Of a stretch of DNA of 64,000 nt, positions 32,743 through 46,345 are shown piece by piece. The stretch's first letter is position 1. The number at the start of each line of letters is the position of its first letter. The translations under genes were made by a program, and so were the position numbers. The notes beneath the pieces were generated by a model. It did no database searches. It was given only the letters and a program-made list of their open reading frames with translations, and was not told the DNA's origin. This DNA is from Hyphomicrobiales bacterium (GTDB lineage Bacteria > Pseudomonadota > Alphaproteobacteria > Rhizobiales > Rhizobiaceae). The stretch spans positions 62,001 through 126,000 of the forward strand of contig UBMU01000028.1 in the NCBI GenBank assembly GCA_900466605.1, read 5' to 3'.

Positions 32743-33012
32743 ATGGCAGAACATCAACATAGTCACCTGCAGGAACGGATGACGATCCTTGGCGACCTTA
32801 AGGCAGCCTCCTTCGTTCCGTGGATCGAGCGTCACGCAGCAAAGCTCGGCCTCTCGCAAGCCATATCTCATACCAGTGTCGACCGGATTGAACTCGACGT
32901 TGCCGGGCCAGAAGAGTTGATCGACATGATGGAGGTTGGATGCTCGCTGGGTCCCATTGACGTTTGGGTTGAAACGATCCTTCGCACACCTATCAGGAGC
33001 GACGACGAGTAG
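32743..33012 (+). CDS. acylphosphatase-like small protein lacking the catalytic arginine
   Basis: An 89-residue protein whose layout follows the acylphosphatase fold: a first strand (TILGDLKAASFVPW), helix (IERHAAKLGL), DRIELDVAGPEELIDMM, and the terminal CSLGPIDVWVETI. In true acylphosphatases the first loop ends GFR, whose Arg binds phosphate, and an Asn follows the second strand. Here the loop reads SFV and the Asn position is Ser. Catalysis is therefore unlikely and a binding role more so. It stands 160 bases before the Rieske operon on the same strand. The 242 bases upstream (32501-32742) show no feature. Confidence 0.55.
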   Translation: MAEHQHSHLQERMTILGDLKAASFVPWIERHAAKLGLSQAISHTSVDRIELDVAGPEELIDMMEVGCSLGPIDVWVETILRTPIRSDDE

Positions 33013-33172: not shown

Positions 33173-33823
33173 ATGCCAGCCGATACGACGGGCCTTTGGA
33201 CGCCAGTCGCGCTTTCCGCAGATTTGCCGTCAGGAACGGTCATCCCCGCACGCACAACAGCTGGATCAATTGCGCTTTGGAGAAGTGATTCGGGACGCGT
33301 AGCAGCATCGGCAGATCGCTGTCCGCATCGTGGCATGCGCCTGTCTTACGGCTTTGTACGCGGTGAATCTCTGTCTTGCATCTATCACGGCTGGAGTTAC
33401 ACGCAGGCCGGAAACTGTCTGCGCATTCCGGCTCATCCCGGGCTTACGCCGCCGGAGACGATCCGTGTAGCTACGCATCTGGTCGAAGAGGCAAATGGCG
33501 TGATCTGGGTGGCGGTCGGAGAACCCGAAGGTCAGCCTCCGAGCTTTGAGGGGCTCGTTCCATTGCGTTCGCTGACGGCACATGCCGGCATTGCCGACAT
33601 TGAGGCCACGACCGGCGCAAAATCAGACGCAAGCGGCCTTTTGAAAACAACCCAAGGCTCCCAAGCGATATGGCTTTTGCTTGTCCAGCAGGAACATGAC
33701 CGCACCCTTGTTCATGTTCTACTCGACGGCGACACAGCGCCCGCGGATCGCATTTCAGCGTCGCGAGCAGCCGAAAGCCTGCGCAGAAGTGCTGAAGATC
33801 TTCGGGCAAGGGGGAGCGCGTGA
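33173..33823 (+). CDS. stand-alone Rieske [2Fe-2S] protein
   Basis: A 216-residue protein with a complete Rieske site: Cys50 and His52 in CPHRG, Cys69 and His72 in CIYHGW, 16 residues apart. It resembles the N-terminal domain of ring-hydroxylating and N-demethylating oxygenases, but no catalytic iron site follows. The last 90 residues are low-similarity. ATG 33173 starts MPADTTGLW; longer frames to 32936 overlap the preceding gene. Its stop overlaps the next ATG. It probably passes electrons to the oxygenase encoded directly downstream, replacing the missing internal Rieske domain. The reductase that would feed it is not in the window. Confidence 0.85.
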   Translation: MPADTTGLWTPVALSADLPSGTVIPARTTAGSIALWRSDSGRVAASADRCPHRGMRLSYGFVRGESLSCIYHGWSYTQAGNCLRIPAHPGLTPPETIRVATHLVEEANGVIWVAVGEPEGQPPSFEGLVPLRSLTAHAGIADIEATTGAKSDASGLLKTTQGSQAIWLLLVQQEHDRTLVHVLLDGDTAPADRISASRAAESLRRSAEDLRARGSA

Positions 33824-34668
33824 TGAGCCTCGGCGCAATGCTCAACGAGTGGTATCCGGTCGGCATGTTCAGCCAGGTCAGCAAGGCTGCATACAAGACC
33901 GCTTTGATGGGCGAACCGATCGAGGTCTCGGTGGGAGCAGACGGGGACGCAAGAGTGACGACACTGGCGGGACGAACCTTACCCGTCCGTGTTCGCTACG
34001 GCCATGTTTGGGCATCCATTGGAGATCCGCAGAAAGAGATCTTTTCCATTCCCGAGGCTGATCAACCCGGGCGCCGGTTCGTCGATGTCGGCGTGGTTCG
34101 TGTGCGCTGCTCGCCGCTTCGCGCGGTCGAGAATTTTCTCGACATTGCCCATTTTCCTTTTGTGCATACCGACATTCTCGGCGCAGAGCCGCATACTGAG
34201 GTACAGAACTACAAGGTCGAAATCCGCGATGTCGAGGACGAGGTCTGGGCAACGCAGGTGAAATTTTACCAGCCCCAGGCTGCAAAGTCTGCAAGTGGCG
34301 GGATTACGACAGAATACATGTACCGCGTACCGGCTCCGACTTGTTCAGTGCTTTATAAAACCTGTCCGCCACGCCCCAGTGAATGGGACGTTATCACCCT
34401 GTTCGTCCAGCCTCTCGCCGAGGATCTTTGCGACGTCTGGCCGTGGATGGCGCTATTTGACGACGAAACATCGATGACCGACCTCATTCATTTCCAGCAG
34501 ACGATCTTCCTGCAGGACCGCTCCATCCTTGAAAACCAGATCCCGCATCTATTACCGCTGGACCCCGGGATGGAGATCCCGACCCGCGCCGATCTGACAT
34601 CGGTTGCTTACCGCCGCTGGCTTAAACGCCACAATTACACCTATGGCGCACAGTTGGTGGCGCAATGA
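33823..34668 (+). CDS. Rieske-type oxygenase catalytic subunit without a Rieske cluster (NdmC-like)
   Basis: A 281-residue protein that holds only the mononuclear iron half of a Rieske oxygenase. ENFLDIAHFPFVH (103-115) gives the bridging Asp107 and the iron ligands His110 and His115; the third ligand is probably the Asp in LQDRSILENQ. The first 90 residues follow the course of a Rieske domain (YPVGMFS, LAGRTLPVRVRYGHVW) but the Cys and His ligands are gone. This is the build of NdmC, the 7-methylxanthine N7-demethylase subunit of caffeine-degrading Pseudomonas, which also needs a GST-like partner. A GST gene overlaps it by 4 bases. The substrate is inferred. Confidence 0.82.
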   Translation: MSLGAMLNEWYPVGMFSQVSKAAYKTALMGEPIEVSVGADGDARVTTLAGRTLPVRVRYGHVWASIGDPQKEIFSIPEADQPGRRFVDVGVVRVRCSPLRAVENFLDIAHFPFVHTDILGAEPHTEVQNYKVEIRDVEDEVWATQVKFYQPQAAKSASGGITTEYMYRVPAPTCSVLYKTCPPRPSEWDVITLFVQPLAEDLCDVWPWMALFDDETSMTDLIHFQQTIFLQDRSILENQIPHLLPLDPGMEIPTRADLTSVAYRRWLKRHNYTYGAQLVAQ

Positions 34669-35324
34669 AGCTTTACGATTACATCCTTTCTCCCAGTTGC
34701 TACAAAGTACGCCTGCTGGCCGCTTTGACCGGAGAAACACTGGATATTAGGCCGGTCGATTTTCATCCAGGCGGTGAGCATCGTAAAGCGGAACTCCTGG
34801 CGCTCAACCCGGCCGGCTCCATTCCGATCCTGGAAGACGGGGATCTGCTCCTGACTGAATCTTCGGCGATGCTCGTGTACCTGGCACAAAAGAAGGCTCC
34901 AGAATGGTTGGGGGACGGCACTGCCGAGCAAGCAGCCCGCCTCCAGCAGTGGCTTTCCTTTTCTCACCGGTTGACGGCAAATCTCGGTGGCGCGCGCCTG
35001 CACGAGATGTTGCTCCGGCCAGGCGATATCGCTCTTCTGCAAGCACAGGGCATCGCTGCATTGCGTGAACTGGAGGCCGGGCTGGTCGAGCAAAATCTGC
35101 GTGGCATCCCGTTCCTTGCTTGCGAGCGACCTACTGTCGCCGACATCGCCTGCTTCCCTTATGTGGCATTGGCACCCGACGGCGGCGTCTCACTTGATCC
35201 CTACCCCGCGATCCGTCGCTGGTCGCGCGCCATTCGCGCGCTTGATGCCTTCATCGAGATGCCAGGCATCCATCGACTACATGAGTTGAAGCCCGAACCT
35301 GAAATCGGCGCGGGCGAGGAGTGA
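34665..35324 (+). CDS. glutathione S-transferase-like protein (NdmE-like partner?)
   Basis: A 219-residue cytosolic GST fold. The N-terminal thioredoxin-like domain (1-78) has YILSPSCYKVRLLAALTG, NPAGSIPIL (cis-Pro) and the glutathione-contact pair ESSAMLVYLA. The helical C-terminal domain has PTVADIACFPYV. The start overlaps the oxygenase stop by 4 bases. In caffeine degradation NdmE, a GST homologue, is needed to assemble the NdmC-NdmD complex; this gene holds the same neighbour position. Ordinary glutathione conjugation is the alternative. Confidence 0.85.
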   Translation: MKLYDYILSPSCYKVRLLAALTGETLDIRPVDFHPGGEHRKAELLALNPAGSIPILEDGDLLLTESSAMLVYLAQKKAPEWLGDGTAEQAARLQQWLSFSHRLTANLGGARLHEMLLRPGDIALLQAQGIAALRELEAGLVEQNLRGIPFLACERPTVADIACFPYVALAPDGGVSLDPYPAIRRWSRAIRALDAFIEMPGIHRLHELKPEPEIGAGEE

Positions 35325-35325
35325 C

Positions 35326-36705
35326 ATGGCCGGCTACCTTTTAAAGAACTGCGCAGCTGTTATCGTCGACGAGGGCAACGGCCCGACGACCCGTCGAAAT
35401 GTCGATGTTTTGACAACCGGCTCCGTCATTAAGGCCATAGGCAACAACCTCAGGCAGGACGAAATCCCGACCGGCACGACTGTTAGAGATGCAACCGGCT
35501 GGTTCGTGTATCCGGGGCTGGTCAATACGCACCATCACTTTTTTCAGTGCTTCGTGCGCAACCGGGCCGATCTCGACTGGACGAAGCTGTCCGTCATCGA
35601 ATGGCTCGACCGCATCTACCCGATCTTTTCGCGGCTGAACGAGGATTGCTTCTATCACTCCTCGGTCACCGCCATGGCCGAAATGATCAAGCATGGGTGC
35701 ACGACCGCTTTCGATCATCAATATTGCTTTCCCCGGCATGCCGGGAAAAGGTTGATCGACCGTCAGTTCGAGGCCGCCGAGCTTCTTGGCATGCGCTTTC
35801 ATGCCGGGCGCGGAGGCAACACGCTTCCGAAATCCGAAGGCTCGACCATCCCCGACGCCATGCTGGAAACAACCGACGAGTTCATTGGCGATTGCGAGCG
35901 CCTGATCGATACCTATCATGACGCCAGCCCTTTCAGCATGCGCCAGGTGGTGGTCGCTCCTTGCCAACCCGTCAACTGCTACCGTGAGACCTTCGTAGAA
36001 TCGGTCGCACTGGCTCGCGACCGTGGCGTTCAAATGCACACTCACGTTGGCGAGGGCGAAAGTCCCGTAATCGAAGCGCGACATGGCATGCGTACCGTCG
36101 ACTATTGCGCTGAGTTGGGTTTTGCGGGACCCGATGCCTTCTACGCCCATTGCTGGGAACTGACACACGGCGAACTGCGCAAGATGGCGGCGGACGGGAC
36201 GGGCGTTTCTCATTGCCCGGAGCCTGTTTATCTGGTTGGCGCGGAAGTAACTGATATTCCGGCAATGGCAGCCTTTGGCCTTCGCGTTGGACTGGGTTGC
36301 GATGGCGCTGCCTCGAACGACAACTCAAACTTGATGCATTGCGTGCACTCCGCCTACATGCTGCAGTGCCTGACCGCATCGACGCGTGAACATCCCGTCC
36401 CGCCTCCGGTCGACTTCCTTGGCTATGCAACAACAGGCGGCGCGGCCCTGCTTGGTCGTCAAGACATAGGCAGACTGGCGTCGGGCATGGCGGCGGACCT
36501 GTTTGCGATCGACACCCGGCGCATGGACTACGTCGGCACCAGACATGATCCGCTTAGCCTGCTTGCCAAGGTGGGCGTCGGCATGCCAACCGATTTGACA
36601 ATGATCAACGGTCGCATCGTGTGGCAAAATGGAGAGTTCGTCGGGCTTGATGAACGCCGTCTGTTTGCCGATGCGGAAGCCGCGCTCGCGACTGTCGATT
36701 TCTAA
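35326..36705 (+). CDS. amidohydrolase of the 8-oxoguanine deaminase/AtzA-like group
   Basis: A 459-residue metal-dependent deaminase of the cog0402 group. The metal ligands are visible: TxHxH-type NTHHHFFQ (His69, His71), MHTHVGEGE (about 238), a later His in HCWELTHGE, and Asp in GLGCDGAASNDNSN (about 325). The Tyr-Pro-Ile and CTTAFDHQY segments resemble 8-oxoguanine deaminase and the triazine hydrolases. Such enzymes remove the exocyclic amine of purines or triazines. The usual CPSSN before the metal Asp reads CPEPVYLVG, which hints at an altered substrate. It lies between the oxygenase-GST pair and a BMP transporter, 1 base after the GST stop. Confidence 0.85.
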   Translation: MAGYLLKNCAAVIVDEGNGPTTRRNVDVLTTGSVIKAIGNNLRQDEIPTGTTVRDATGWFVYPGLVNTHHHFFQCFVRNRADLDWTKLSVIEWLDRIYPIFSRLNEDCFYHSSVTAMAEMIKHGCTTAFDHQYCFPRHAGKRLIDRQFEAAELLGMRFHAGRGGNTLPKSEGSTIPDAMLETTDEFIGDCERLIDTYHDASPFSMRQVVVAPCQPVNCYRETFVESVALARDRGVQMHTHVGEGESPVIEARHGMRTVDYCAELGFAGPDAFYAHCWELTHGELRKMAADGTGVSHCPEPVYLVGAEVTDIPAMAAFGLRVGLGCDGAASNDNSNLMHCVHSAYMLQCLTASTREHPVPPPVDFLGYATTGGAALLGRQDIGRLASGMAADLFAIDTRRMDYVGTRHDPLSLLAKVGVGMPTDLTMINGRIVWQNGEFVGLDERRLFADAEAALATVDF

Positions 36706-36727
36706 AACACAAAGAAGGGGAACCAGA

Positions 36728-37825
36728 ATGACAAACATAACTCGCAGAACCCTGATGCAGGGCGTTGCAGCAGCCGGCCTGACCGCTGCCTTTGGCGGTC
36801 GCGCCGCATTGGCGGCCGACGAGCCACTTGGGATTACGCTCGTCGTACCCTCCCCAATCGGCGATGTTGGCTGGGGCCATGCCCTGGCCGCTGGGCTGGA
36901 GCCGATCAAGGCAGCCTACGGCGACAAGGTGAAGGTGACCATCGTCGAGAATATTCCGGAGGGCCCGGACGCTGACCGCATCATGAACAAGACGGTCGCC
37001 GACGGAAACAAGTTCTTGATCGCCGGCTCCTTTGGCTATCAGAACGGTGCGCTTCAAATTGCCCGACGCAACCCTGATGTCACCGTTTTGCACGCGTCGG
37101 GCTTCCAGGTGGCTCCAAACTTCTCGCCTTTTGCAGCTAAGTACTTCCAGGGAACCTACCTGCTCGGCATGGCCGCGGCAGCGATGTCCAAGACGGGCAA
37201 GCTCGGTTCCGTATCCGCCTTCGCCATCCCTGAACTCATCACCTCGATCAATGCTTTCACGCTCGGCGCTCAGGCGGTGAACCCCAACGTTGAAGTTTCG
37301 GTGGTTTGGGTAAACTCATGGTTTGATCCGGCCAAGGAACAGGAAGCCGCCAAGGCGCTGATTGCGCAAAAGTGCGATGTGATCTTCTCCAATGCGCAGG
37401 ATACGCCCTCTGTCATATCTGCGTGCGAGGAAGCTGGCGTTTATTCGTTCAACCTCAATTCGTCGATGAAGAGCTATGCTCCGAAGACCTATCTTGGCTG
37501 CGTCTCCACTGATTGGTCGCCATTCTTCAAGGCTTCTGTTGATGCTCATCTCGCCGGCACATTCAAGGGCGCGAACACGTTCCTTGGCGTTGCGGACAAG
37601 GTCGTCGAAGTTGTTGACTGGAATGCTGCTATTCCGGCCGAAACCATGACCAAGATCAAGGCCGCAGAGGCAAAGATCGCCGATGGAAGTCTCTCGCCGT
37701 TTACTGGCCCGATCAGCAAAGCTGACGGAAGCGAAGGTGTCGCAGCCGGCAAGACCCTGACGGATGGGGAAATCGTAGCGATGGATTGGCACGTCAAGGG
37801 CGTGACAACGCCGCTGCCTAAGTAA
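36728..37825 (+). CDS. BMP-family ABC transporter binding protein (purine/nucleoside type)
   Basis: A 365-residue periplasmic receptor of the basic membrane protein (Bmp/PnrA) family, whose known ligands are nucleosides and purines. The N-terminus NITRRTLMQGVAAAGL carries a twin-arginine pattern and a cleavage site after ALA. The mature domain has SPIGDVGWGHALAAGLE, FGYQNGALQIARRNPDV and YFQGTYLLGMAAAAMS. ATG 36728 follows AGAAGGGG. It starts the transporter part of the operon, 22 bases after the amidohydrolase. Confidence 0.92.
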   Translation: MTNITRRTLMQGVAAAGLTAAFGGRAALAADEPLGITLVVPSPIGDVGWGHALAAGLEPIKAAYGDKVKVTIVENIPEGPDADRIMNKTVADGNKFLIAGSFGYQNGALQIARRNPDVTVLHASGFQVAPNFSPFAAKYFQGTYLLGMAAAAMSKTGKLGSVSAFAIPELITSINAFTLGAQAVNPNVEVSVVWVNSWFDPAKEQEAAKALIAQKCDVIFSNAQDTPSVISACEEAGVYSFNLNSSMKSYAPKTYLGCVSTDWSPFFKASVDAHLAGTFKGANTFLGVADKVVEVVDWNAAIPAETMTKIKAAEAKIADGSLSPFTGPISKADGSEGVAAGKTLTDGEIVAMDWHVKGVTTPLPK

Positions 37826-37828
37826 GCC

Positions 37829-39352
37829 ATGACCGCCCCACTTCTGTCGCTTCGCGGCATCTCGAAGAGCTACGGCCAGATCCACGCCAATCAGGCGATT
37901 GATCTGGACGTGGCGCCGCAGTCGATCCATGCAATTCTCGGCGAAAACGGGGCGGGCAAATCGACGCTGATGAAAGTGATCTACGGCGTTGAACAACCAG
38001 ACAGCGGATCGGTTGTCTGGGAAGGTGAACCCTTGGCCCTTGCCTCCCCGGCGGAGGCAAGGCGCAGGGGCATTGGCATGGTCTTCCAGCACTTTTCGCT
38101 GTTCGAGACCCTGACTGTCGTGGAAAATATCCAGCTCGTCGTCGCAGGCAAAAAGGCAGACCTCATCAAACGCATCCGCACTCTTGGCCAGGAATTCGGC
38201 CTTGAAGTGGATCCGCTTGCCCATGTCCATGCGCTTTCGGTCGGTGAGCGCCAGCGTGTTGAGATCATCCGCTGCCTGATGACAAACCCACGGCTGTTGA
38301 TCCTGGACGAACCGACGTCTGTCTTGCCTCCCCAGCTTGTCGAGAAGCTGTTCGAGACGCTACGTCGGCTGCGGGATGGAGGTGTATCCATCCTGTTTAT
38401 CTCGCATAAGCTTGAGGAGATCCGGGCGATCTGCGACAGGGCAACGATCCTGCGCGGAGGTCGTGTGACGGGCAATATCGACCCACGTGAGCACGATGCC
38501 CACGACCTTGCCCGCTTGATGATTGGCCGTGACATGCCCGAGCCGATGGCTGCGCTCCCACTCTCCGGCGGCGAGAAGCGACTTGAGATCATTGGCCTCC
38601 ACCATCGCCCCGAAGATCCTTTCGCAGTGCAGCTTTCCGATATTACGCTTGCGGTGCGATCTGGCGAAATCCTGGGGATCGCCGGCATTTCGGGCAACGG
38701 CCAGAGCGAGCTTGCCTCACTGATCTCAGGTGAGGTCATCCTACCGCGAGACCAGCGCGACAGGATCTACATGATGGGTCGTGATGTCGGCAGGCTGGAC
38801 GCAGCCCACCGTCGCGAACTCGGATTTGCGTTTGTACCCGAAGATAGACTGGGACGGGGCGCAATTCCCGAAATGTCACTGGTGCTCAACGGTCTCCTGA
38901 CGGCCCACCCCCTGGACCTCGTCCGTCATGGCCTTATTGACAAGGCAAAGGCTGCGGCTTTTACCAATGATTGCATTCGAGAGTATGATGTACGCACCCC
39001 CGGCCCTGATGCGGAAGCAGGTTCGCTTTCGGGCGGAAACCTTCAGAAGTTCATTGTTGGTCGTGAGATCAAACTTGCACCGAAGCTGCTTTTTGTTGCG
39101 CAGCCGACATGGGGTGTGGACGTCGGCGCTGCATCGGCTGTTCGGCGCCGTCTTGTTGCCTTGCGCAATGAGGGCATGGCCATTCTTGTTATTTCAGAAG
39201 AACTCGAGGAACTATTCGAGCTCTGCGATTTCATTCAGGTATTGCACCACGGGACTTTGAGCCGCCCGCTTGTGACGAAGGAAACGCGACCCGAGGAAAT
39301 CGGCCGCTACATGATTGGCGCGAAAGACGCTTTGGAGAAAACCAGCGCATGA
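37829..39352 (+). CDS. nucleoside/purine-type ABC transporter ATPase (two domains)
   Basis: A 507-residue tandem ATPase of the kind that pairs with BMP receptors. The first domain has Walker A GENGAGKST, a VHALSVGERQRVEIIRCL signature and LLILDEPTSVL. The second has the degenerate GISGNGQSELASLISG, LSGGNLQKFIVGREI and LLFVAQPTWGVDVGAA, where the usual Asp-Glu is replaced by Ala-Gln as is common in this half. It starts 3 bases after the receptor stop and overlaps the first permease by 4 bases. Confidence 0.93.
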   Translation: MTAPLLSLRGISKSYGQIHANQAIDLDVAPQSIHAILGENGAGKSTLMKVIYGVEQPDSGSVVWEGEPLALASPAEARRRGIGMVFQHFSLFETLTVVENIQLVVAGKKADLIKRIRTLGQEFGLEVDPLAHVHALSVGERQRVEIIRCLMTNPRLLILDEPTSVLPPQLVEKLFETLRRLRDGGVSILFISHKLEEIRAICDRATILRGGRVTGNIDPREHDAHDLARLMIGRDMPEPMAALPLSGGEKRLEIIGLHHRPEDPFAVQLSDITLAVRSGEILGIAGISGNGQSELASLISGEVILPRDQRDRIYMMGRDVGRLDAAHRRELGFAFVPEDRLGRGAIPEMSLVLNGLLTAHPLDLVRHGLIDKAKAAAFTNDCIREYDVRTPGPDAEAGSLSGGNLQKFIVGREIKLAPKLLFVAQPTWGVDVGAASAVRRRLVALRNEGMAILVISEELEELFELCDFIQVLHHGTLSRPLVTKETRPEEIGRYMIGAKDALEKTSA

Positions 39353-40449
39353 ATGCCATGTCTGCAGCCTTCCTGCCCACGTTTGTCCGCCGCGAACGCG
39401 CTTCGTTTTCTGCAACGTTGGCTGCGCCATTCCTCGCGTTGGCGGTAGCGACTATCCTGAATGTCGGCCTTTACATGATTATGGGTCGCAATCCGGTCAG
39501 CGTTGTCTATGCAATGCTCCTTGAACCCTTTCTCTCCTGGGCATCGTTTTCAGAAGTTCTTTTGAAGGCCGGACCACTTTTATTGATCGCGCAAGGTCTT
39601 GCGATCGGCTTTCGCGCCAAGGTCTTTAACATCGGCGCCGAAGGGCAATTCATCCTCGGCGCGATATTTGCCTCCGCAATACCCGTTTGGTTTCCTCAGG
39701 CAACCGGACAGTGGATTTGGCCACTCATGCTGATCCTGGGCACAATTGGTGGCGCCCTTTGGGCCTCGCTCACCGCGTTCTGGCGGGTCAGGCTGAACGC
39801 GAACGAAATCCTCGTCTCACTAATGCTCAGCCTCGTGGCCGCGCAGCTGTTGAATTATCTGCTCCTCGGGCCTTGGAAGGATCCGAACGGTTTCAACTTC
39901 CCGCAATCGGTCATGTTCCAGTACGACGCAATGGTACCGCTGCTCATTTCAGGTACGCGTGTCAACGTTTCCTTGATCATCACAATCGCTCTGTCCTTGG
40001 CTGCCTGGGTATTCATGCAGAGGAGCTTTGTCGGCTACAAGCTCCAGGTTGGAGGCCTGGCTCCGCGTGCGGCCGCTTACGCTGGCTTCAAGGAAGGCTG
40101 GGCAATCTGGCTCTCCCTCCTGATCGGCGGCTGCGCTGCCGGTCTTGCCGGCGCGGCTGAAGTGGCCGGTCCCCTTGGTCAGTTACAGCGGTCAATCTCG
40201 ACCGGCTATGGCTATGCGGCCATCATCGTCGCCTACCTCGGAGGCCTCCACCCCATTGGCATCATCGCCTCCTCACTATTCATGGCTGCTCTCTACATTG
40301 GCGGCGACAATGCCATGGTGTCGGCAAACCTTCCGATTGCTGCAGTACGAGTTTTCCAGGGAAGCCTTCTTCTCGCTTATCTGGTTGCCATCGCCTTCGT
40401 CCGGTACCGCCTCGAATGGCGTCGGACTGTTAACCGGAGCCAACCATGA
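39349..40449 (+). CDS. nucleoside/purine-type ABC transporter permease 1
   Basis: A 366-residue inner-membrane permease of the BPD_transp_2 family. Conserved parts are IGFRAKVFNIGAEGQFILGA and LNANEILVSLMLSLVA, followed by about eight hydrophobic spans and IIVAYLGGLHPIGIIASS. The FNIGAEGQ sequence is characteristic of the nucleoside-transporter permeases paired with BMP receptors. Overlaps of 4 bases on both sides show strict coupling. Confidence 0.92.
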   Translation: MNAMSAAFLPTFVRRERASFSATLAAPFLALAVATILNVGLYMIMGRNPVSVVYAMLLEPFLSWASFSEVLLKAGPLLLIAQGLAIGFRAKVFNIGAEGQFILGAIFASAIPVWFPQATGQWIWPLMLILGTIGGALWASLTAFWRVRLNANEILVSLMLSLVAAQLLNYLLLGPWKDPNGFNFPQSVMFQYDAMVPLLISGTRVNVSLIITIALSLAAWVFMQRSFVGYKLQVGGLAPRAAAYAGFKEGWAIWLSLLIGGCAAGLAGAAEVAGPLGQLQRSISTGYGYAAIIVAYLGGLHPIGIIASSLFMAALYIGGDNAMVSANLPIAAVRVFQGSLLLAYLVAIAFVRYRLEWRRTVNRSQP

Positions 40450-41357
40450 ATGCCATCGAGTTCATTCTTGCCGGCATGCTCGCAGCCGCGACGCCTTTTC
40501 TTCTTGCGGCGCTTGGCGAACTGGTCGTCGAACGGGCGGGCGTTTTGAACCTTGGTGTGGAGGGCCTTATGGCCTTTGGCGCAGCGCTGGCCTTTATTAT
40601 CGTCTACCACGGCGGCGGTCACTTTTTGGGGTTCGTCGCCGCAGGACTTGGCAGCGCTGCACTTTCATTGATCTTTGCCGTGATCGCTCTTGGTTTCAGA
40701 GCGAACCAGGTAGCAACCGGTCTTGCCATCGGCATTCTCGGCCAGGGTCTCTCCGCGCTATTTGGAAAAACCTATGAGAGCCTCACGGTCAGGGGGCTCC
40801 CCAAACTCTCCGTTCCCTTTCTGTCGGACATCCCTGTTGTCGGCGGGATCTTTGTCCAGGACCTGGTCGTTTGGCTGTCACTCGCCGCCACGATTGCGAT
40901 TTGGGCCCTGTTTGCGTTTTCGAAGGTCGGTCTTGTCGTGCGGGCAGTTGGAGAAAACCCCAAAGCTGCTCACGCGATAGGCTATCACGTCATTGTCGTT
41001 CGCGTTATCGCCGTTGCCTTCGGTGGTGCGATGGCAGGGTTTGCGGGCGCCTATGCTTCGGTGGTCTATACGCCACTTTGGGCCGACGGGATGATCGCCG
41101 GACGAGGTTGGATTGCAATTGCACTCGTCGTGTTCGGCACGTGGCTCACCGGCCGCATCTTTCTCGGCGCGTGCCTGTTTGGCGCCGTATCCCTGATGGG
41201 CCTTGCCGCGCAGGCAACGGGTGTAAACGTCCCTTCGCAAATGCTTGCGAGCCTGCCCTACCTTGTCACCATCATTGTGCTCGGCATCATTTCGGCAGAC
41301 CGTCGGCTGTTGAAGCTGAACGGGGTCGCCTCGCTCGGCGAACCCTTCGAACGTTGA
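40446..41357 (+). CDS. nucleoside/purine-type ABC transporter permease 2
   Basis: A 303-residue permease, shorter partner of the one upstream. LAALGELVVERAGVLNLGVEGLM is the signature of this subfamily (LNLGVEGLM), followed by eight or so membrane spans and GRGWIAIALVVFGTW. It is the last gene of the operon that starts with the Rieske protein. The convergent xdhC stop is only 6 bases away. Confidence 0.92.
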   Translation: MNAIEFILAGMLAAATPFLLAALGELVVERAGVLNLGVEGLMAFGAALAFIIVYHGGGHFLGFVAAGLGSAALSLIFAVIALGFRANQVATGLAIGILGQGLSALFGKTYESLTVRGLPKLSVPFLSDIPVVGGIFVQDLVVWLSLAATIAIWALFAFSKVGLVVRAVGENPKAAHAIGYHVIVVRVIAVAFGGAMAGFAGAYASVVYTPLWADGMIAGRGWIAIALVVFGTWLTGRIFLGACLFGAVSLMGLAAQATGVNVPSQMLASLPYLVTIIVLGIISADRRLLKLNGVASLGEPFER

Positions 41358-41363
41358 GCGTCG

Positions 41364-42221
41364 CTATGGGCTGTCAACCTTGAGCGTCCGCTGATTAGCC
41401 TCGTGCGTCGCAACGAACGACAATGCGGCGGTCATGACCTCGGCAGCTGCGAGCGTCGCGATGACGGCGGGACGCTTGTCTTTGACCCCATTCCCCCCAA
41501 TCGGACAGACGAGGCAATCGGCAAGCTCAGGGCCTTGAGCCTCGCGCGACAGCCAGCTCTTGAAGGTAGCACGCTTGGTTTTCGATCCAATCATCCCGAC
41601 ATAGCATGCGTCCTTGCGGCGCAGGGCTTCGGCGGCGATCAGGAAGTCGAGCGCGTGATCATGGGTGAGAACAATGAACGCGCTGCCTGCCGGAGCATTG
41701 CGCACAATGGCCTCCGGCATTGCTGTCAGACAGGTTTCGACACCCGACACGCGCGAGGCAGCAAGTTCCTCCTCCCGCGTATCAACCAATACTGTGCGTA
41801 AGGGTGTCAGTGACAGCGCCATGGCAAGTGCATCACCGACATGGCCGGCGCCGAAAACATAGACATGAGGCCGCCTGGCAATCTCTGCGTCGGCTCGCGC
41901 AACAAGCGCGTCTGCGACTTCAGCTCTCAGCGCGGTGAACGAAAGCCCTACCCGTCCGCCGCAGCATTGCCCGATTTCCGGACCAAGCGCTACATTCATC
42001 GTTGTTTCTGGATGCGACCGGCGCAAGGCACGCCGCGCCTGGTCAATTGCCATGTACTCAAGTTGGCCACCGCCGATAGTTGAAAAGGTCCTCGACTTAG
42101 AAACCAGCATCCAGGCGTCAGTGTCGCGCGGTGTAGAGCCGGCCACACCTGTCACTTCGACAAGCATGCAATGGGGCTCTTTACGCAGAAATTCCCGCAG
42201 ATTGTCACGGGCTGCTGGCAT
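41364..42221 (-). CDS. xdhC: xanthine dehydrogenase accessory protein XdhC
   Basis: A 285-residue chaperone that binds molybdenum cofactor, protects or helps sulfurate it, and inserts it into xanthine dehydrogenase. The N-terminal XdhC/CoxI domain has VEVTGVAGSTPRDTDAWML, FSTIGGGQLEYMAID and IGQCCGGRVGL. The C-terminal Rossmann domain has VYVFGAGHVGDALAMAL and YVGMIGSKTKRATF. No xdhA or xdhB is in the window. Its place directly after a purine-type transporter and deaminase operon, though on the other strand, points to xanthine as an intermediate there. Confidence 0.92.
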   Translation of the reverse strand: MPAARDNLREFLRKEPHCMLVEVTGVAGSTPRDTDAWMLVSKSRTFSTIGGGQLEYMAIDQARRALRRSHPETTMNVALGPEIGQCCGGRVGLSFTALRAEVADALVARADAEIARRPHVYVFGAGHVGDALAMALSLTPLRTVLVDTREEELAASRVSGVETCLTAMPEAIVRNAPAGSAFIVLTHDHALDFLIAAEALRRKDACYVGMIGSKTKRATFKSWLSREAQGPELADCLVCPIGGNGVKDKRPAVIATLAAAEVMTAALSFVATHEANQRTLKVDSP

Positions 42222-43748: not shown

Positions 43749-45005
43749 ATGATGATTACGCTGACGTACCGTATCGAAACGCCCGGCAGCATCGAGGCCA
43801 TGGCGGACAAGATCGCAAGCGACCAATCGACAGGTACATTCGTGCCGGTTCCTGGGGAGACTGAGGAACTGAAGTCGCGTGTGGCAGCGCGAGTGCTGGC
43901 GATCCACCCGCTTGATGACACGAACCATCCGACCTGGCCCGAGGTTGCTCCGGGCACCCGCCTCAGCCGCGCCGACGTTGATATCGCCTTTCCGCTAGAC
44001 GCGATCGGAACTGACTTATCGGCCCTGATGACCATCGCAATCGGCGGCGTCTATTCGATCAAGGGCATGACCGGCATCCGCATCGTTGACATGAAATTAC
44101 CGGCGGCGTTCAAGGACGCACATCCTGGACCACAATTCGGTATTCCCGGCAGCCGACGCCTGACTGGCGTGGAAGGACGCCCGATTATCGGAACGATCGT
44201 CAAGCCGGCGCTGGGGCTTCGTCCTCACGAGACCGCGGAGCTTGTTGGCGAACTGATTGAATCTGGCGTCGACTTCATCAAGGACGACGAAAAACTCATG
44301 AGCCCGGGCTACTCGCCACTCAAGGAACGGGTGGCGGCGATCATGCCGCGGATTCTCGATCACGAACAGCGGACCGGCAAGAAGGTGATGTATGCGTTCG
44401 GGATCTCGCACGCCGATCCCGACGAGATGATGCGCAACCACGACATCGTCGCTAAGGCTGGAGGCAACTGCGCCGTCGTCAACATCAATTCGATTGGCTT
44501 CGGCGGCATGAGCTTCCTTCGCAAGCGCTCCAACCTGGTGCTGCATGCACATCGCAACGGCTGGGACGTTCTGACGCGAGATCCCGGCGCCGGCATGGAC
44601 TTCCAGGTCTACCAGCAATTCTGGCGGCTGCTCGGCGTAGACCAGTTTCAGATCAACGGTATCAGGGTCAAATATTGGGAGCCGGACGACAGCTTTGTCT
44701 CCTCCTTCAAGGCGGTCAGCACACCACTCTTTGATGCGTCGGACTGCCCGCTGCCAGTCGCCGGTTCCGGCCAATGGGGCGGCCAGGCTCCCGAGACATA
44801 TCAGCGAACCGGCCGCACCACGGACCTTCTCTATCTCTGCGGTGGCGGTATTGTGAGCCACCCTTCGGGTCCGGCCGCCGGTGTTCGTGCCGTCAAGCAG
44901 GCCTGGCAGGCAGCGGTTGCCGGCATCCCCCTGGAGACCTACGCAAAAGACCATCCGGAACTGGCCGCATCGATCGCAAAGTTCGGCGACGGCAAGGGCG
45001 CGTGA
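43749..45005 (+). CDS. oiaX: RuBisCO-like 3-oxo-isoapionate-4-phosphate decarboxylase OiaX
   Basis: A 418-residue RuBisCO-like (form IV) protein. KPALGLRPHETA (152-163) matches the first active-site loop and FIKDDEKL (177-184) keeps the metal-site KDDE. Names and chemistry come from the described D-apiose pathway, where OiaX decarboxylates 3-oxo-isoapionate-4-phosphate to L-erythrulose-1-phosphate. The assignment is strengthened by the kinase, oxidoisomerase, dehydrogenase and lactonase genes that follow. It is not a CO2-fixing enzyme: the pathway context and divergence in other loops argue against that. It is first in the operon and divergent from its probable regulator. Confidence 0.9.
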   Translation: MMITLTYRIETPGSIEAMADKIASDQSTGTFVPVPGETEELKSRVAARVLAIHPLDDTNHPTWPEVAPGTRLSRADVDIAFPLDAIGTDLSALMTIAIGGVYSIKGMTGIRIVDMKLPAAFKDAHPGPQFGIPGSRRLTGVEGRPIIGTIVKPALGLRPHETAELVGELIESGVDFIKDDEKLMSPGYSPLKERVAAIMPRILDHEQRTGKKVMYAFGISHADPDEMMRNHDIVAKAGGNCAVVNINSIGFGGMSFLRKRSNLVLHAHRNGWDVLTRDPGAGMDFQVYQQFWRLLGVDQFQINGIRVKYWEPDDSFVSSFKAVSTPLFDASDCPLPVAGSGQWGGQAPETYQRTGRTTDLLYLCGGGIVSHPSGPAAGVRAVKQAWQAAVAGIPLETYAKDHPELAASIAKFGDGKGA

Positions 45006-45010
45006 CCGCT

Positions 45011-46345
45011 ATGGAGAACCTCCTCGTTAGCTACTATGGAGATGACTTTACCGGTTCCACTGATGTCATGGAGGCTCTGGCTTCGCACGGAGTTGCGACC
45101 GTCCTCTTTCTCGACATCCCCTCACCGGAAATGCTCGCTCGCTTCAAGGGATGCCAAGCAATCGGAATTGCCGGGACGAGCCGCAGTGAGACGCCCGAAT
45201 GGATGCAGGCGCAACTCACGCCGGTCCTCGAATGGCTGAAGTTACTGGAAGCGAAATTTTGCCACTACAAGGTATGCTCGACGTTCGACTCCAGTCCCGA
45301 GATCGGGAGCATTGGCAAGGCGATAGAAATAGGGCGCGCGACTTTCGAGCAGGTCGTTGTGCCGGTCGTCGTCGGCGCTCCGCAGTTGAAGAGGTACACC
45401 GCGTTCGGCAATCTTTTTGCGGCCTACCAAGGAAACATCTATCGGATAGATCGTCATCCGGTCATGAGCCGCCACCCGGTCACTCCGATGGGCGAGGCCG
45501 ATCTTGCTGTTCACCTGTCGCGGCAGACCCGATTGCCTGTTACCGTGGCTGATGTTGCGGCGATTGCGTCGGTTGACGCAGACTTGCGGGTCGACCAATT
45601 GGCGTCGAATTCTCCAGGGATTCTGCTCATCGATGTCGATTCAGAAGCAACGCAAGCTGCTGCCGGACGTCACCTGCTTCGACTGGCGGACCAGTTTGGA
45701 GGTTTCCTCGCTGGCTCGTCTGGAGTCGAATATGCACTTCTCAATGCCTGGCGGCGGAGCGGCGTCATTGCCGGGAATGCAGATTTCCCCGAAGTCGGCC
45801 CCGTCGACCGGATCGCGGTAGTCTCCGGCAGTGTTTCACCAACGACCGAGCGCCAAATTCGAAAAGCTGTGGCTGACGGCTTCGAGAGCATTTCAATCGA
45901 TCCCCTGTCGTTGGTTTCGGAAGATTGCAACGAAGCGATTGCGGCGGCGGTTCGGGCCGGAATCCAAAAGCTGAAGGACGGCAAGAGCGTCATCCTTCAT
46001 ACGGCGCTTGGTCCGTCGGCGGATGTCGGTGCCGACATGGACAAACTCCCAGGGGCGCGTCATGCACTTGGACGAGCGCTCGGCACTGTGCTGCGCCGGC
46101 TAGTCGAGAGCGAGGGATTGTCGCGCGCTGTTATCGCCGGCGGCGATACCTCGAGCCACGCCCTTCGACAATTGAAGATCGAAGCATTGACTACGCTTCT
46201 TCCGCTTCCACAGACGCCTGGCTCCCCCCTTTGCCTCGCCCATGGAGACTATCCCGCAACCAACGGCCTGCAGATCGCTTTGAAGGGCGGTCAGGTCGGA
46301 ACGGACGAATACTTCGCCCAGATACGCGCGGGAAGGAAGAACTAG
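45011..46345 (+). CDS. oiaK: 3-oxo-isoapionate kinase OiaK (four-carbon acid sugar kinase family)
   Basis: A 444-residue kinase of the DUF1537 family. The N-terminal domain begins YYGDDFTGSTDVMEALAS, the substrate-binding signature. The C-terminal nucleotide domain has IAVVSGSVSPTTERQI and VIAGGDTSSHALRQL. In D-apiose catabolism OiaK phosphorylates 3-oxo-isoapionate on O4. ATG 45011 is 5 bases after the oiaX stop. A GTG at 45002 overlapping that stop is an alternative start that adds three residues. Confidence 0.9.
   Translation: MENLLVSYYGDDFTGSTDVMEALASHGVATVLFLDIPSPEMLARFKGCQAIGIAGTSRSETPEWMQAQLTPVLEWLKLLEAKFCHYKVCSTFDSSPEIGSIGKAIEIGRATFEQVVVPVVVGAPQLKRYTAFGNLFAAYQGNIYRIDRHPVMSRHPVTPMGEADLAVHLSRQTRLPVTVADVAAIASVDADLRVDQLASNSPGILLIDVDSEATQAAAGRHLLRLADQFGGFLAGSSGVEYALLNAWRRSGVIAGNADFPEVGPVDRIAVVSGSVSPTTERQIRKAVADGFESISIDPLSLVSEDCNEAIAAAVRAGIQKLKDGKSVILHTALGPSADVGADMDKLPGARHALGRALGTVLRRLVESEGLSRAVIAGGDTSSHALRQLKIEALTTLLPLPQTPGSPLCLAHGDYPATNGLQIALKGGQVGTDEYFAQIRAGRKN

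Follow-up and report, generated by a model that had tools for sequence, protein, structure and literature searches.

A conserved nine-gene operon of soil and plant-associated bacteria encodes an NdmC-family Rieske oxygenase apparently split over two proteins, with candidate functions in the catabolism of methylated guanine

In ordinary Rieske oxygenases, each cluster hands its electron to the iron of a neighbouring subunit. In the 7-methylxanthine N7-demethylase NdmCDE of Pseudomonas putida CBB5, the oxygenase (NdmC) is Rieske-less, the Rieske cluster is carried together with a reductase on a separate chain (NdmD), and a glutathione S-transferase (GST) homologue (NdmE) is included. Homologues of ndmCDE in Sinorhizobium and Mesorhizobium are listed as of unknown function in a review (PMC4408171). 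Here we describe a locus in a 64,000-nucleotide stretch of DNA from a Hyphomicrobiales bacterium (contig UBMU01000028.1, positions 62,001 to 126,000; hereafter the window) that shares with NdmCDE a Rieske-less oxygenase of similar length and 44% identity, an NdmE-like GST and a Rieske cluster located on a separate protein. Open reading frame (ORF) mapping coupled with a Pfam/NCBIfam scan of the window recovered all eight tightly coupled + strand genes and the convergent xdhC of the original prediction; together with a small upstream gene, the + strand block comprises nine genes. The nine-gene unit was found to be conserved across soil and plant-associated bacteria. We propose, with a probability of roughly 0.6, that it serves the uptake, deamination and oxidative N-demethylation of methylated guanine.

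The split oxygenase is encoded by two overlapping genes. The first (33173..33823, + strand; Pfam Rieske, 69.2 bits) encodes a Rieske carrier of 216 amino acids that corresponds to the N-terminus of NdmD without the reductase, and the second (33820..34668, + strand, with GTG 33820 or ATG 33823 as start; Pfam VanA_C, 69.2 bits) encodes the NdmC-family Rieske-less oxygenase. Cluster ligands Cys50, His52, Cys69 and His72 had been read from the carrier before, and were found to be invariant in 72 aligned sequences including that of the window. For the oxygenase, an iron site of Asp107, His110 and His115 had been proposed; these residues and Asp232 are invariant in 15 aligned sequences, again including the window. 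The iron ligands of Rieske oxygenases are two histidines and one carboxylate. By this family rule, the ligands would be His110, His115 and Asp232, with Asp107 as a bridge, such that the two histidines of the proposed triad stand and its aspartate is in need of correction. A bridging aspartate in Rieske oxygenases is described in PMC12445004. The oxygenase combines a Rieske-oxygenase fold and an intact iron site with the absence of cluster ligands, as does NdmC. The predicted model of the Rieske protein superposes over all of its 216 residues on whole Rieske-oxygenase subunits, and its second domain resembles a catalytic domain that is reduced in size and has no iron ligands. When the two halves were compared to each other profile to profile, likeness was confined to the N-terminal strand region. 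The carrier and the oxygenase look like two complementary shrunken oxygenase subunits, a split that would leave the working pair intact because the electron crosses from the cluster to the iron of the neighbouring subunit.

The kinship of both halves was examined by sequence comparison and by trees built on selected rows (80 and 53). The oxygenase was 44.3% identical over 280 amino acids to M1EY73_PSEPU, the protein named methylxanthine N7-demethylase (NdmC), compared to 32.2% for an unsplit Leptolyngbya oxygenase and 26.5% for an NdmA-like protein. In the oxygenase tree, three full-length oxygenases lay outside a single group (97/95) that held the Rieske-less proteins. The window oxygenase fell among free-Rieske loci in a clade of 28 rows (97/86), and authentic NdmC in one of 13 rows (100/97) that includes locus L144. 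A 29-row node uniting NdmC with the other fused forms was weak (91/48), L148 and L149 were basal, and the root is unsure because of the long outgroup branches. In the Rieske tree, carriers and NdmD N-termini formed one group (100/98) with a fused clade (99/94) and a free clade (99/95); L148 fell outside both, and L144 was not among the rows. Thus, the oxygenase groups with NdmC, as the original prediction had it, and belongs to a lineage separate from NdmC proper. The Rieske part corresponds to the NdmD N-terminus, and there is no reductase in its chain. The GST gene (34665..35324, + strand; Pfam GST_N) adjoins the oxygenase gene, with the overlap of 4 bases seen earlier (34665 versus 34668), and its NdmE-like match supports the earlier comparison with NdmE. 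On a plasmid of Leptolyngbya boryana (L016:1027-6675), an unsplit Rieske oxygenase of 324 amino acids is encoded directly behind a BMP-type importer. This protein is the nearest of the three unsplit oxygenases in the tree, so that its position merely hints at a link to the importer older than the split.

Conservation of the operon was scored in 83 loci. Besides the window, L009 and L013, these were the 80 top-ranking among at least 526 confirmed loci, a choice that biases the sample to close kin. All eight of the earlier-listed genes were kept in 74 of the 83 loci, and the Rieske, oxygenase and GST genes in all 83, so the grouping is not a matter of chance. Among the nine incomplete loci, five stop at a contig end (L030, L041, L079, L081 and L089), two are without the amidohydrolase (L064 and L073), one has the first three genes only (L069), and one is rearranged (L096). 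The latter has no amidohydrolase and carries, behind the importer genes, a guanine deaminase that scores over its cut-off (428.8 versus 375.4). The operon was found to be widespread in Rhizobiaceae and Rhodobacterales. Of 199 genomes of the same family, 43 had NdmC-family matches (E up to 1e-30). In a phylum sample of 398 genomes, 25 had such matches (E up to 1e-20), and proteins long enough for full-length oxygenases were among these 25.

Clustering of the flanking ORFs brought to light a small + strand gene upstream of the Rieske gene (32743..33012; 89 amino acids) that is absent from the earlier gene list. By tblastn with the R. acidisoli copy, this gene was detected in 81 of the 83 loci. 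The window copy scores just below the Pfam acylphosphatase cut-off (18.6 versus 22.5 bits) and the Qingshengfaniella copy above it (23.7); a profile of 62 copies matched acylphosphatases of the PDB (E = 1.4e-5), and a predicted model (predicted local distance difference test score, pLDDT, 88.5) resembled acylphosphatases with a template modelling (TM) score of about 0.7 to 0.8. Acylphosphatase activity depends on a catalytic arginine and a catalytic asparagine. Arginine was found at the first position in 2 of 60 copies and asparagine at the second in none of the 60; with both residues lost, the small protein is probably no enzyme.

The distribution of the small gene follows that of the free Rieske carrier. 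In 128 loci scanned by hidden Markov model (HMM), the small protein was found with 110 of 115 free Rieske parts and with none of 13 fused ones, L144 being counted as fused because its Rieske part is joined to a plant-type ferredoxin domain, without a flavin domain. The HMM count was used throughout; a BLAST count differed for L144, L148 and L149. After removal of duplicates (L015 omitted and 8 pairs of identical loci merged), the figures were 102 of 106 versus 0 of 13, and after clustering at 90% identity, 56 of 60 versus 0 of 12. Since loci of one clade are not independent, this co-occurrence represents few evolutionary events. The five free-Rieske loci without the small protein were L041 and L156 (one species), L070, L148 and L159. 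The gene lies on the operon strand in 109 of 110 loci (opposite in L169), and all 109 same-strand copies are upstream except those of L150 and L171, which are at the far end. Thus, the small gene stays with the free-Rieske block even where its position shifts, and its product probably serves as a structural partner to the free carrier.

Beyond the 83 loci, 40 further regions were compared, a selection from the NdmC-family genome matches other than full-length oxygenases. Some were of the window type. In others, for example L152, L154, L162 and L172, the small protein, Rieske carrier, GST, a guanine deaminase and a BMP importer are encoded together, and an oxygenase gene, or a pair of them, lies some kb off. 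In L171 and L150, the Rieske carrier, oxygenase and GST are accompanied by a free reductase and an importer; in L171, this reductase is similar to phthalate dioxygenase reductase (4.9e-60) and, over the ferredoxin domain, to NdmD (2.3e-23). Other loci, for example L139, L145 and L151, have a fused NdmD. Several observations on related loci are recorded here in their own right. The ferredoxin-fused carrier of L144 (7807-9117) has no flavin/NADH domain and adjoins an NdmC-clade oxygenase. In other Rhizobiaceae, a second NdmC-family oxygenase has as its neighbour a protein of about 1050 amino acids in which a xanthine dehydrogenase-type molybdenum domain follows another domain; this was seen in L173 (9623-12802; pucD, 683.8, below 783.65) and, by BLAST only, in L174 and L176. 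NdmCDE-like clusters on plasmids of Klebsiella pneumoniae (L010:6731-13385) and Pseudomonas putida (L011:2715-14374) also carry a TIM-barrel protein and 2-oxoglutarate oxygenases, and pSymA of Sinorhizobium meliloti (L012:9968-11779) has two adjacent Rieske-less oxygenases with one NdmD and one GST.

The nature of the substrate was approached through the importer and the amidohydrolase. The importer is encoded by genes for a BMP-family solute receptor (36731..37825; Pfam Bmp), an ATP-binding cassette (ABC) transporter ATPase (37829..39352; Pfam ABC_tran) and two permeases (39349..40449 and 40446..41357; both Pfam BPD_transp_2), all on the + strand. The nearest solved relative of the receptor is the guanine-binding AtzT (6pi5; 279 bits, 129 of 335 aligned positions identical), followed by a Brucella BMP protein modelled with adenine (3s99), similarly to the purine-type transporter that had been predicted. 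Six of the nine guanine-site residues of AtzT (PMC6834077) are identical in the window receptor (Ser97, Phe98, Thr139, Glu165, Trp194 and Asn218), and the other three are changed, one conservatively (Tyr45 to Trp) and two as Asn169 to Ser and Asn220 to Asp. Among 100 operon-type receptors, duplicates included, Trp48, Ser100, Phe101, Trp197 and Asp224 were present in all, Thr142 in 95, and Glu168 and Asn221 in 94.

The amidohydrolase (35326..36705, + strand; Pfam Amidohydro_1, deaminase subfamily) is kin to 8-oxoguanine deaminase, as noted earlier, and scores 370.6 bits against a cut-off of 532 for NF006055, which rules out 8-oxoguanine deaminase as its name. Its metal and catalytic residues (His69, His71, His240, Glu243, His275 and Asp326) were found in 93 of 93 copies. 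It has conserved active-site loops of its own, among them HCPEPVYL, every position of which is kept in 92 or 93 of the copies. Guanine deaminases over the cut-off are encoded in six of eight related loci tested (L096, L151, L152, L154, L162 and L168; L147 and L172 were below). Three loci, L145, L147 and L152, encode an 8-oxoguanine deaminase that passes its cut-off. The convergent xdhC (41364..42221, - strand; Pfam XdhC; xanthine dehydrogenase accessory protein TIGR02964, 313.4 versus a cut-off of 161.6) is present beside the operon here and in R. tibeticum (L032), that is, in only 2 of the 83 loci, and was rejected as a member of the conserved operon; its link to the block is a particular one. 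No other xdhC of this genome passes the curated cut-off, and xdhAB are encoded elsewhere. On a different contig of the same genome, a guanine deaminase gene (567.7 bits) accompanies xdhA (685.5) and xdhB (1363.7), with no adjoining xdhC. With these genes elsewhere and the sole xdhC in the window, xanthine is plausible, no more, as an end product in this genome.

We prefer the methylated-guanine reading because it uses all of the parts. The BMP receptor and ABC importer would take up a guanine-like purine bearing a methyl (or similar) group, and the amidohydrolase would strip the exocyclic amino group from it. The NdmC-family oxygenase would take off the N-methyl group as formaldehyde, acting as two complementary shrunken subunit copies, one with the [2Fe-2S] cluster and without iron and the other the reverse, that may be held together by the NdmE-like GST and the small, inactive acylphosphatase-fold protein. 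The product would enter purine catabolism. N7 is one candidate for the methyl position, and a deamination-first order with 7-methylguanine as the substrate is possible.

Electrons would come from a reductase encoded elsewhere, whereas in NdmD a carrier of this kind and its reductase form a single chain. BLAST of the 83 loci with the reductase part of NdmD returned only L083 (25%, in a stretch judged by eye to be a phenylacetate cluster), and HMM search of the 128 loci for a free reductase returned only L150 and L171. In the genome of the window, the best match to the NdmD reductase was 28%, and the Rieske part of the operon does not share a chain with a reductase as it does in NdmCDE. The best candidate for the donor in this genome belongs to a GbcA/GbcB-like oxygenase and reductase pair (C63; L097, L003), both below their cut-offs, and is the GbcB-like reductase. 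Reductases of Rieske systems are described as moderately promiscuous in PMC12445004.

The competing explanation that survives best retains the purine operon and split oxygenase and alters the chemistry: either a ring or side chain is hydroxylated, as by HpxD (annotated xanthine hydroxylase), or the amidohydrolase frees an alkylamine from an N-alkylated amino group. HpxD-annotated proteins do occur among the distant matches of the oxygenase, and the best PDB match of the amidohydrolase is named both 8-oxoguanine deaminase and hydroxydechloroatrazine ethylaminohydrolase, with triazine hydrolases next. NdmC is, however, far closer to the oxygenase (44%, full length) than is HpxD (25 to 30%, partial), and N-demethylation is the sole activity known so far from a Rieske-less family member (PMC4408171); we consider this alternative unlikely.

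Less likely again is a substrate that is not a purine, such as a guanine look-alike or another ring (s-triazine, pterin, isocytosine or a vitamin B6-like compound). In its favour, the amidohydrolase matches not only the triazine hydrolases but also 2paj, which we take to have isoxanthopterin activity. In NCBIfam, the importer parts come closest, below cut-off, to a putative B6 transporter, which counts against a purine substrate. AtzT also binds ammeline (0.36 uM) and 2-hydroxyatrazine (2.2 uM; PMC6834077); however, guanine is the tightest of the ligands tested. The true guanine deaminases of related loci and the kinship to a methylxanthine enzyme also argue against a non-purine substrate, and a recently acquired herbicide trait is disfavoured because the operon is so wide in Rhizobiaceae and Rhodobacterales.

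The existing annotation, by which the oxygenase is a vanillate or other aromatic O-demethylase next to an unrelated importer, is very improbable. PDB matches of the oxygenase were limited to SxtDIOX, SxtT and NdmA, and SxtT and SxtDIOX came first for the Rieske protein, which nevertheless also gave good matches to phthalate-type enzymes and dicamba monooxygenase. The 44% identity to NdmC, the purine-type neighbours and an oxygenase without a Rieske cluster in its own chain weigh against this annotation. It is equally hard to credit that the halves do not cooperate, with the oxygenase half decayed and the Rieske protein serving another enzyme, as each half lacks one cofactor site but keeps the other invariant, and the Rieske, oxygenase and GST genes lie together in 83 of 83 loci, although the oxygenase genes of some relatives are several kb away.

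Building on the methylated-guanine reading, a more detailed scenario can be offered tentatively. The operon may encode a four-protein machine that arose by complementary decay of two subunit copies, with the GST and the dead acylphosphatase recruited as clamps and NdmD formed by fusion of the cluster half to a reductase; in Rhizobiaceae and Rhodobacterales, it would be dedicated to salvage of methylated guanine from RNA or DNA turnover.

The surroundings of the operon were also surveyed. A scan for promoter-like sites before the operon gave 1 versus 0.7 expected, and for terminators, 0 versus 0.6 expected. In the adjoining region (43749-46345), a RuBisCO-like gene passes the cut-off for OiaX, 3-oxo-isoapionate-4-phosphate decarboxylase (785.6 versus 700). 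The next gene encodes an OiaK-like kinase that falls below its cut-off (471 versus 700), with a GntR/FCD regulator nearby; these neighbours probably belong to an apionate pathway.

RNA turnover yields methylated guanine. In the open-licence literature searched, no demethylation route for methylated guanine from RNA or DNA turnover turned up, no description of a free-Rieske NdmC system was found, and no Rieske demethylation of methylguanine was found, including in the portions at hand of PMC4408171, PMC8055839, PMC6834077, PMC6186785, PMC13237722, PMC12445004 and PMC10380055. If the substrate is methylated guanine, the operon would represent a catabolic route for this base. The locus also offers a testable function for kin of the rhizobial ndmCDE-like genes whose function is listed as unknown (PMC4408171), would explain NdmD as a fusion, and puts a name to a conserved small component that had been overlooked. 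Furthermore, a natural series for the study of electron transfer between subunits is provided by the unsplit form (Leptolyngbya, with its BMP importer), the split form with a free reductase, the split form alone, the ferredoxin-fused form and the reductase-fused form.

Compared to NdmCDE, the window is distinguished by the free Rieske carrier, the acylphosphatase-fold protein, a deaminase and BMP importer within the operon, and an oxygenase of a separate clade. The ndmCDE-like clusters of Sinorhizobium, Klebsiella and Pseudomonas putida KF715 are similar to the window in oxygenase (43-44% identity), GST and purine-type transporters; by contrast, they have a fused NdmD, and no acylphosphatase-like gene was found in them by HMM. 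The small protein of the window has the fold of acylphosphatase without its catalytic pair. Among solved structures, GxtA/SxtT stand closest to both oxygenase halves, and NdmA also matches both, yet these enzymes hold both cofactors on one chain. The amidohydrolase has the same metal and catalytic residues as 8-oxoguanine and guanine deaminases and differs from them in having HCPEPVYL in place of their HCPxSN-type loop. With respect to the purine receptors AtzT and Brucella BMP, the window receptor keeps six of the nine guanine-site residues of AtzT and differs in the remaining three.

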